Part shown: positions 12,574-16,708 of the stretch, piece by piece | How the letters are laid out: each line of letters begins with the position of its first letter | How positions within the stretch are numbered: the stretch's first letter is position 1 | Virus record (IMG/VR): IMGVR_UViG_3300009103_000195 | Location: 1-20,112 of that record | Length of the DNA stretch: 20,112 nucleotides | DNA from: a virus | Strand: one strand, 5' to 3' | Notes under the pieces: model-generated | Told to the model about the DNA's origin: nothing | Databases searched by the model: none | The model's input: only the letters and a program-made list of their open reading frames with translations | Made by a program: the position numbers and the translations under genes

Positions 12574-13278
12574 CTAGTGTTTACCTAGTACGTCTTTAAT
12601 TTGAAATAGAGGGACGCTGTGTGATGCGGTAGGCTGGTCTCGCCTGCCGGCGTATAGTACCGCCACCACATTGCCAAATTTATCTAGAATAGGGGAACCT
12701 GAGTTCCCTCCGTAACTAATCGCGTTTAGATGATAAGAGGCGTAGTAGAAATTGCAGTAAAATTTAGGCTTATTGTAGCAGTAGTTTCTCAAATATATAT
12801 TTGTTTTCTGAACTAGATGTCCGCGCTCAAAGCTGAGACCGCGCCCTCCCGGATGACCTACTAAATAGACAGATTCACGCTTATGAGCCTGACCTGCTAC
12901 TCCTAAAGGACGAAGGTTAGGAATTCCCTCAAGAAGACATAGGTCTGCGTCCCTATCTCTATAAATAACCGCAAGGGTGCCCCCTTTTTCTTCTTCTTGA
13001 TACCATGCGATTTTATCACCGTGTCGTGTAAGCCCGTCGCAAACATGTCTGTTAGTCATCGTATATTGTTTGCCACTAGCCCCTAGCACCTGAAATCCTG
13101 TGGCTGATCTGCCGCCCGCCTTTAGTTTAACAACACTCTTACCCTTATATTCATATAAATAAGTTTCATGTAACGCTCTACTAGAAATAGAGCAAATAAA
13201 TAAAAGGGAGGCAAGAATACCTACTCTAATCGTGAACTTCAGAAGACTCCACATCTTCTTTCTCGCTTTCTTTAGCAT
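12574..13278 (-). CDS. Exported trypsin-like serine protease, 234 aa
   Basis: An N-terminal basic stretch (KKARKK) and a hydrophobic segment (~12-31) end in SISSRA, a plausible signal-peptidase site after residue 35; it could also act as an uncleaved anchor. The chymotrypsin/trypsin-like fold shows a full triad: H78 in MTNRHVC (TAAHC-equivalent), D112 in DRDADLCLL, and S193 in YGGNSGSP, with GHPGG before it. Cysteines at 80, 114, 167 and 175 could form disulfides outside the cytoplasm. AAGGAG is 7 nt before ATG 13278, although this overlaps the upstream gene by 53 nt. A head-maturation role is unlikely for an exported enzyme; cleavage of envelope or competing-phage receptor proteins is speculation. 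Confidence 0.88.
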   Translation of the reverse strand: MLKKARKKMWSLLKFTIRVGILASLLFICSISSRALHETYLYEYKGKSVVKLKAGGRSATGFQVLGASGKQYTMTNRHVCDGLTRHGDKIAWYQEEEKGGTLAVIYRDRDADLCLLEGIPNLRPLGVAGQAHKRESVYLVGHPGGRGLSFERGHLVQKTNIYLRNYCYNKPKFYCNFYYASYHLNAISYGGNSGSPILDKFGNVVAVLYAGRRDQPTASHSVPLFQIKDVLGKH

Positions 13279-15744: not shown

Positions 15745-15876
15745 ATGAGCAATCTAGTGAAGAATTTTATACTACTGCTAATTATGATCTCGATAACTGC
15801 TTTACTATTCACTAGTTGTCGTGTTGTCACGCCTAGCTCTCTGGAGGTGTATAATGATAAGGTCAAGAAGAAGTAG
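15745..15876 (+). CDS. Small lipoprotein, 43 aa
   Basis: ATG at 15745 has GGAGG 7 nt upstream, one of the best SDs in the window. Residues 7-24 are a hydrophobic signal (KNFILLLIMISITALLF) ending in a lipobox-like LFTSC with Cys25; Phe at -3 is less usual than Leu. The mature part would be only 19 residues (begins CRVVTPSSLE, ends KVKKK). Known small phage lipoproteins include outer-membrane spanins (Rz1-like) and receptor-blocking exclusion proteins such as T5 Llp. The early-type location favours exclusion over lysis, but there is no sequence match to either. The last 23 nt overlap the next gene. Confidence 0.65.
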   Translation: MSNLVKNFILLLIMISITALLFTSCRVVTPSSLEVYNDKVKKK

Positions 15877-15994
15877 AGGGTCTAGGTCTGGGTCTAGGTC
15901 TTGGTCTAGGTCTGGGTCTGGGTCTAGGTCTTGGTCTAGGTCTTGGTCTGGGTATTGGTCTTGGTCTTGGTCTAGGTCTGGAGGTGTATCGTGA
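15854..15994 (+). CDS. RS/GS/WS dipeptide-repeat protein, 46 aa
   Basis: ATG at 15854 has GGAGG 6 nt upstream. After MIRSRRSRG the peptide is 17 dipeptides of Ser with Arg, Gly or Trp (plus one Tyr-Trp), ending GGVS. It stops at TGA 15992-15994, overlapping the next GTG as GTGA, the typical coupling of adjacent phage genes. The composition is disordered, basic and aromatic, suiting binding to RNA, DNA or membranes; similarity to eukaryotic SR domains is only compositional. It overlaps the lipoprotein's 3' end. It may alternatively be a translated leader with no protein function. Initiation signals are strong, function unknown. Confidence 0.55.
   Translation: MIRSRRSRGSRSGSRSWSRSGSGSRSWSRSWSGYWSWSWSRSGGVS
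15881..15982 (+). repeat. Array of 17 TCTNGG-type hexamers
   Basis: Seventeen hexamers of the form TCT(A/G/T)GG run without interruption; one is TATTGG and the last is TCTGGA. The fourth base varies in an apparently irregular order, giving AGG, GGG or TGG codons (Arg, Gly, Trp) alternating with TCT (Ser). The period of six keeps the frame, so copy-number change by slippage would lengthen or shorten the peptide without frameshift. The plus strand is C-poor, G/T-rich DNA. Confidence 0.92.
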
Positions 15995-16272
15995 TAAAGT
16001 CAAGAAATAAGATTGGATGGTGTGATTGTCATCAAGCCCGAATTGCTAAAGGGAAAAAAGTGTTACCTGGACAAATTGTACTTTATATTGAAGTGGAGAC
16101 AAATGATGAAGGAATCTGTCTATATTGTGGACATTACACACAAAAACATAGACCTAAACGCGGGCGTCCGAAAAAGAATAACGAAGCTGATTTAACTAAG
16201 GAGCACTATAATGAAGGAATTACAACAAATCGTCAGACCGAGGGGTATAGAAGTCCACGGACAAGAGGCTGA
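15991..16272 (+). CDS. Cys-cluster and AT-hook protein, 93 aa
   Basis: GTG at 15991 has GGAGG 6 nt upstream. Residues 10-14 (WCDCH) and 43-48 (CLYCGH) provide C11, C13, H14, C43, C46 and H48, fitting a small zinc-binding fold. They are followed at once by an AT-hook: HRPKRGRPKKN (53-63) with the GRP core that binds the minor groove of AT-rich DNA. The C-terminal ~30 residues are hydrophilic and overlap the next gene by 62 nt. Zinc-ribbon plus AT-hook suggests a DNA-binding regulator or a nucleoid or host-transcription modulator made early. The family is not identified. Confidence 0.75.
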   Translation: MIKSRNKIGWCDCHQARIAKGKKVLPGQIVLYIEVETNDEGICLYCGHYTQKHRPKRGRPKKNNEADLTKEHYNEGITTNRQTEGYRSPRTRG

Positions 16273-16708
16273 CAGGGCAGACGCTATCGCCTATCTAGAG
16301 AACCTAGAGATTGAAAGGGAGCTGGAAAAAAGACGGAGCAGTGAAGAGTATAAACAAACATTGTTTAAACAGAGAGAAGCCGCTAAAAAGTACAGTAAAA
16401 AGGCGGCTAAATCAAAAGAGGACGCGTTATGCGGCTCGCACCTTGATCTTAAGTGGTATAAGTCTAACAGAAAGCTTTATATTAAGGGGACCGGGGCTTA
16501 CATAACTCAAAGGGAATTGACGCGGTTTGTCAAGAACGGTGGAGACTTTAGTGTGGAAGTTGACGGAGAATGTGCTAAGACAGAGTTGCTTTACAGATTG
16601 TGTGCGTCTCAGATTGTTGGAGAGAATACGGGTGACCATAGGGCAATGATTAACTTTATAAGGAGTGGGGTTCCTGCCCAATCAGAGATTTCGCACCGAG
16701 GCGAATAG
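16211..16708 (+). CDS. PhaR-like DNA-binding domain protein, 165 aa
   Basis: Residues ~15-70 are charged helix (ERELEKRRSSEEYKQTLF), probably coiled coil. Residues ~81-137 read KWYKSNRKLYIKGTGAYITQ, RELTRFVKNGGDFSVEV and LLYRLCASQIV. This resembles the N-terminal DNA-binding domain of the polyhydroxyalkanoate regulator PhaR (PF07879), whose pattern is KYxNRxLYDTxxSxYVTLxDI, LVxxGxxFxVxD, TxxxLxQII. ATG at 16211 has AAGGAG 7 nt upstream; the gene overlaps the AT-hook gene by 62 nt. PhaR represses storage-granule genes; a phage copy could alter host PHA metabolism or serve as a phage regulator. Homology is judged by eye from the motif. Confidence 0.65.
   Translation: MKELQQIVRPRGIEVHGQEADRADAIAYLENLEIERELEKRRSSEEYKQTLFKQREAAKKYSKKAAKSKEDALCGSHLDLKWYKSNRKLYIKGTGAYITQRELTRFVKNGGDFSVEVDGECAKTELLYRLCASQIVGENTGDHRAMINFIRSGVPAQSEISHRGE

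Follow-up and report, generated by a model that had tools for sequence, protein, structure and literature searches.

What kind of gene lies between two near-identical translation starts in a fragmentary phage genome, and is it a local accident or a member of something larger? The window, by which we mean the whole 20,112-base stretch analysed here, is an IMG/VR virus record and a fragment, whose genes include a P22-like portal, a terminase and an SU10-like capsid. A preliminary description, made from the letters of the window, had drawn attention to a hexamer array encoding a serine-rich peptide and had taken it for a gene born de novo, by duplication of a neighbouring start and in-frame growth of the repeat.

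Results

A repeat-encoded mini-gene between duplicated blocks

The array has the highest Tandem Repeats Finder scores in the window (125 with a 6-nt unit, 171 with a 30-nt unit). Seventeen TCTNGG hexamers had been counted, of which fifteen are exact, spanning 15881-15976, and two near-exact (TATTGG at 15953 and TCTGGA at 15977). They make up most of an open reading frame (Table 1) that translates as MIRSRRSRGSRSGSRSWSRSGSGSRSWSRSWSGYWSWSWSRSGGVS and a stop, 46 residues in which serine alternates with six arginines, five glycines and six tryptophans by direct count. The ATG stands 6 nt downstream of a good Shine-Dalgarno sequence, GGAGG, and the stop codon (15992-15994) lies where a 4-nt GTGA overlap joins the next gene, all of which the preliminary description had read correctly. 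Promoters, terminators and Rfam RNAs near the array showed no excess over shuffled sequence.

Table 1. Features at the array locus, in window coordinates
Feature	Position	Strand	Basis
43-aa ORF, hydrophobic N-terminus, lipobox-like LFTSC	15745..15876	+	translation; 3' end overlaps repeat-ORF start
Duplicated block, copy 1 (SD, ATG, first codons)	15840..15869	+	27/30 repeat
Shine-Dalgarno GGAGG of repeat ORF	15843..15847	+	sequence; ATG 6 nt downstream
(S-[R/G/W])n mini-protein ORF, 46 aa (candidate family member)	15854..15994	+	sequence and family evidence
Leader codons, MIRSRRSRG	15854..15880	+	translation; leader comparison
Hexamer array: 15 TCTNGG, one TATTGG, one TCTGGA	15881..15982	+	Tandem Repeats Finder, hexamer count
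Duplicated block, copy 2 (SD, GTG, next gene's first codons)	15977..16006	+	27/30 repeat
Downstream 93-aa gene, two CxC/CxxC pairs, zinc-ribbon look	15991..16272	+	starts inside GTGA overlap

The reported duplication of a 30-nt start on both sides of the array is equally real: the two copies agree at 27 of 30 positions, and no other direct repeat in the window, outside the array itself, is as good. In copy 2 a second GGAGG (15980-15984) precedes by 6 nt the GTG at 15991 with which the downstream gene begins. What had been missed is that copy 1 doubles as the 3' end of the 43-aa ORF, which finishes in LEVYNDKVKKK, and that translation of copy 2 in the (GL)n frame gives a near-identical ending, GLEVYRDKVKK followed by a stop; the duplicated block thus combines the end of a gene with the start of one. 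The 43-aa ORF has no match in Pfam or PHROGs.

Distant homologues of the downstream gene occur at two loci, L010 and L015, both of which lack the array, and homologues of this gene begin with leaders containing serine, arginine and lysine (MSKSNREF in L017, for example). The gene that adjoins it in the window (16211-16708, + strand) has a weak match to PHB_acc_N (E 4.3e-4, below cut-off), and in the relatives L010, L015 and L017 the PHB_acc_N-like gene and the CxC/CxxC gene stand in reversed order. Elsewhere in the window, a trypsin-like serine protease gene with a hydrophobic N-terminus (12574-13278, - strand; Pfam Trypsin_2, E 1.8e-13) sits in the packaging cluster, flanked by the gene for the terminase large subunit and by a small ORF.

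A family of Ser-X peptides in phages

The preliminary description had proposed looking for the array in related genomes. No close relatives of the window's region were found, and the near relatives that were found lack the array; arrays encoding serine alternating with another residue (Ser-X) nevertheless proved to occur across IMG/VR phages. A scan of IMG/VR for five GGTCTN units gave at least 120 rows, and a search starting from the partner gene described below gave at least 80 loci; counts from these collection scans are samples among the matches listed rather than frequencies, and the loci are mutually related. Across hundreds of IMG/VR phage contigs there are at least 331 distinct Ser-X peptides. 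In mixed arrays, where A, G and T all appear at the variable position, the layout recurs: an ATG, a leader of some 10 residues (about 7-12), Ser-Arg/Gly/Trp repeats and a stop. Of the 95 mixed arrays listed with sufficient flank, 80 are preceded in the Ser-X frame by an ATG no more than 20 codons away; the corresponding counts are 6 and 11 for the two remaining sense frames and 6 to 16 for the antisense frames. The stop falls a median of 0 codons past the array end. Over the 331 distinct peptides listed, the X residue is glycine at a fraction of 0.31, arginine at 0.29 and tryptophan at 0.27, with all three present in 322; we infer that a free variable base would put arginine, which two of the four bases specify, near one half. 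The tails carry a median net charge of +10, a composition that bears out the suggestion of a basic-aromatic and probably disordered peptide. Judged from sequence, the family is almost certainly real and translated.

Multiple Ser-X ORFs occur at 46 of the 240 loci listed, and at L021, L035 and L095 these are tandem copies with repeated starts. The start duplication in the window is of this same kind, but here copy 2 begins the next gene. At L021, L035, L080 and L095 many Ser-X mini-genes follow one another in tandem within one locus, and every one of them has a separate start. Pure (TCTCGG)n arrays that lack the leader layout (L023, L063, L065, L092 and others) form a separate repeat class.

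Among public records, the family includes UOF78858.1 of MW202573.1 (Manatee Spring phage), annotated as a hypothetical protein and overlapping the partner coding sequence by 4 nt; it differs from the window peptide in using TCG for serine and in its class-b leader, MNAAIIRAGLDAS. INPHARED yielded two records. Most of the arrays matched in bacterial genomes repeat just one kind of unit. Mixed arrays also occur on contigs of metagenome-assembled genomes (MAGs), and of five MAGs in which such arrays have an ATG of their own, four contain a partner match. L151, L211, L214 and L222 (two Patescibacteria, one Halanaerobiales, one other) come from genomes with such a match, and their contigs are probably phage contigs binned with hosts. 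Because the partner was found in only 1 of 287 genomes in the phylum of the Patescibacteria MAG, we assign no host.

Conservation of the peptide and turnover of the array

Inside a TCT array no position varies less than the serine wobble base (98.5% constant), which taken by itself would point to a repeat kept as DNA. The DNA repeat is homogenised within an array and carries no codon-level signal there; the protein-level case accordingly rests on comparison between phages. Between phages, serine is encoded by TCT, TCG, TCA, AGC or AGT and arginine by AGG or CGG, a diversity of serine codons showing that conservation lies in the peptide rather than in the DNA repeat. At L418 (3272-3547) the units are TCG-TAC, TCG-CGC and TCG-GGC, with tyrosine in place of tryptophan. 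Leader pN/pS lies between 0.16 and 0.56. Selection on the (GL)n frame or the antisense (PR)n frame, which appeal in the window in that N is their wobble base, is contradicted by the frame bias across the family and by the changes of codon between phages.

The arrays themselves turn over quickly. Loci whose partner 3' ends are 97-100% identical encode peptides unlike in length and order, with 72 and 42 residues at L432 and L433, 88 and 29 at L274 and L339, and 53 and 69 at L061 and L062, as expected from the earlier proposal that the array can change length without loss of frame.

A predicted Sm-fold partner

Immediately upstream of the array, many loci carry a member of one and the same protein family, about 85-120 aa long. 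Its profile HMM matches 153 of the array loci listed, and a Ser-X ORF comes next after 143 of 155 matches, most commonly at an offset of -4 (an ATGA overlap). Because those loci had been chosen for their arrays, we reversed the test and used the partner alone as query, finding the peptide next in 74 of the 80 loci listed; of four peptide-less partner loci with room for one, inspection of the DNA reveals a short version in three (MTRGLKQKYRSGS in L416, MNLNVARCRYKRWSWSWSG in L403 and MATNYQRVTWSRSLSGSWR in L410). A programmed -1 frameshift fusing peptide to partner is not general, since all three relative frames are used (98, 28 and 17 of 143).

Partners fall into two classes with different leaders: at least three lysines or arginines in 74 of the 92 class-a pairs listed, and fewer than three in all 66 class-b pairs listed. 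As the loci are related and not independent, this matching shows at least joint inheritance, not contact.

The partner has no assignment above cut-off in Pfam, PHROGs or NCBIfam. Confident AlphaFold models predict small beta barrels (pLDDT 89.9 for class a, 85.0 for class b) whose best PDB matches are in both cases Sm/LSm proteins (1i8f_C, Z 10.7, rmsd 1.6 over 65 residues; for class b, 4f7u_J, Z 10.6), although Foldseek E-values are modest (best 5.7e-4), and we describe the partner as having a predicted Sm/LSm fold. Sm proteins, familiar from the splicing machinery, form rings and bind RNA. In a comparison with the Sm1 glycines and the Sm2 IxxRGxxI motif of that superfamily, G20 and G34 are invariant in A1, and an RG stretch occurs in class b alone.

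Genes beyond the pair are not conserved. In a ten-protein sample, the few nameable neighbours include SSB, primosomal and replication-initiation proteins, dCMP deaminase, an exonuclease, a methyltransferase and one endolysin, a set that loosely fits an early, nucleic-acid setting; no defence families were found.

The window as a probable family member

The window peptide has the family composition, with serine alternating with arginine, glycine and tryptophan, all present, and its ORF has the family layout, with an ATG of its own, a short in-frame leader and a stop near the array end. The leader resembles MIRSRLQKY (L039), MIRSSKQRYRS (L316) and MIRSAKNKW (L417), and its four arginines in residues 2-10 are like those of class-a leaders, in a stretch too short for a formal score. 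No Sm-fold partner stands directly upstream, where the gene is instead the lipoprotein-like ORF, and the partner HMM matches nothing in the 20 kb of the window, nor in those records of relatives that were searched. Membership therefore rests on the peptide, its frame, leader and hexamer type, and we class the window with the peptide family without counting it among the two-gene modules. Among 15 other orphan records, six have a partner elsewhere in the record, and several of 25-58 kb have none. The window covers 20 kb of an incomplete genome, and among related phages the longer records reach 30 to 43 kb, so a partner may lie outside it. On this comparison of sequences, the ORF very probably belongs to the Ser-X family.

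Discussion

The array is probably the body of a small gene in a large, unnamed phage family, in most of the phages studied the second gene after one with a predicted Sm/LSm fold. The partner fold, the chemistry of the tail, the matching of leader to partner and the coupling of the genes led us to propose a mechanism in which the leader would dock on an Sm-fold ring while the tail, with arginine and tryptophan on a serine and glycine background, would bind or condense RNA or DNA early in infection, supplying many weak arginine and tryptophan contacts. Hexamer slippage would alter the length of the tail with its composition held. The copy in the window is an orphan with its start block duplicated at the next gene, where ribosomes finishing the peptide may reinitiate. 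Our best guess is accordingly a basic-aromatic disordered tail protein that would partner an Sm ring in acting on nucleic acid, although we advance a nucleic-acid or condensate role for the peptide only tentatively, at somewhat less than even chances.

Of the alternatives to this mechanism, the two chief ones are a membrane-active peptide and an action in cis on translation of the downstream gene. An Arg/Trp-rich, cationic make-up would suit a membrane-active factor serving lysis, antimicrobial action or superinfection exclusion, and genes for a lysozyme and an endolysin are found close to the module in L258 and L405, respectively. The main partner, however, has a predicted Sm fold, and the nameable neighbours, in a small sample and not conserved, belong mainly to replication and nucleotide metabolism, making this reading rather unlikely.

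The birth of the gene in place, with the downstream gene's start duplicated, hexamers growing between the copies and the likeness to the family convergent, draws on the 27/30 duplication, on the missing array in the near relatives found, on the lack of a partner gene and on the Ser/Arg/Lys leaders of the downstream-gene homologues. Against it, the hexamer type, frame, layout, MIRSR leader and balanced arginine, glycine and tryptophan all match the family, whereas the arrays met in the bacterial-genome scan mostly repeat one unit. We consider such convergence improbable: of the original de novo proposal the start duplication stands, but local birth finds no support as a general origin for a widespread family of hundreds of members with differing codons, most of which follow one particular neighbour gene.

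Just as doubtful is a role in cis, by which translation of the ORF and reinitiation at the GTGA would set expression of the downstream gene, with array length as the tuning element. The overlap and duplicated Shine-Dalgarno sequence in the window, and the ATGA overlaps common in the family, would suit it, but downstream genes vary across the family while the peptide residues are kept across codons. That the array acts as DNA or RNA (a binding-site array, a G-rich structure or a recombination site) with its frame incidental is very improbable, for although the wobble base is held within arrays, the repeat is G-rich and tandem copies occur, the same alternation is also encoded by AGC, AGT, TCA and TCG repeats and by TCG-NNC units, and mixed TCT arrays are strongly biased to the Ser-X frame.

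Returning to the Ser-X peptide and its predicted Sm-fold partner, we found the pair described neither in Pfam, PHROGs, NCBIfam and PDB sequences nor in the open-access papers that could be searched, and it appears to be a conserved two-gene unit, unnamed so far, in many uncultivated phages. It was likely overlooked because the peptide is short, of low complexity and masked by filters, and the partner falls below library cut-offs. A more speculative possibility, which we think less likely than not, is that phages widely encode a ribonucleoprotein or condensate pair, an Sm-fold ring with a fast-evolving, slippage-built Ser-Arg/Gly/Trp tail, as an analogue of Sm-SR/RG partnerships, with the window an orphan tail. 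If this role were true, phages would make low-complexity Arg/aromatic tails to accompany Sm-fold proteins, slippage would provide an unusually clear natural series of disordered tails, constant in composition but varied in length and order, and tail length and composition would be directly testable in a small system.

Among known systems, the partner gene, which is absent from the window, is most like the Sm/LSm/SmAP/Hfq superfamily, with which it shares a predicted small beta barrel; class-b partners also carry an IxxRGxxI-like VIVGRGAIVDA in the last strands. It differs in being phage-encoded, in standing beside a separate Ser-X mini-protein and in having no library assignment, and any ring formation or RNA binding is putative. 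The DUF6948 phage proteins give a fold-level match to the partner model in a viral structure library (E 6.7e-4), but have no sequence match in the Pfam scan and no Ser-X neighbour in these searches. In eukaryotes, SR proteins and the RG-rich tails of SmB, SmD1 and SmD3 combine a low-complexity, arginine-containing tail with an RNA-binding module. The likeness of these to Ser-X peptides is one of make-up only; the Ser-X peptide is the product of a separate gene, keeps a strict serine alternation that includes tryptophan, has no RRM and is encoded by phages.
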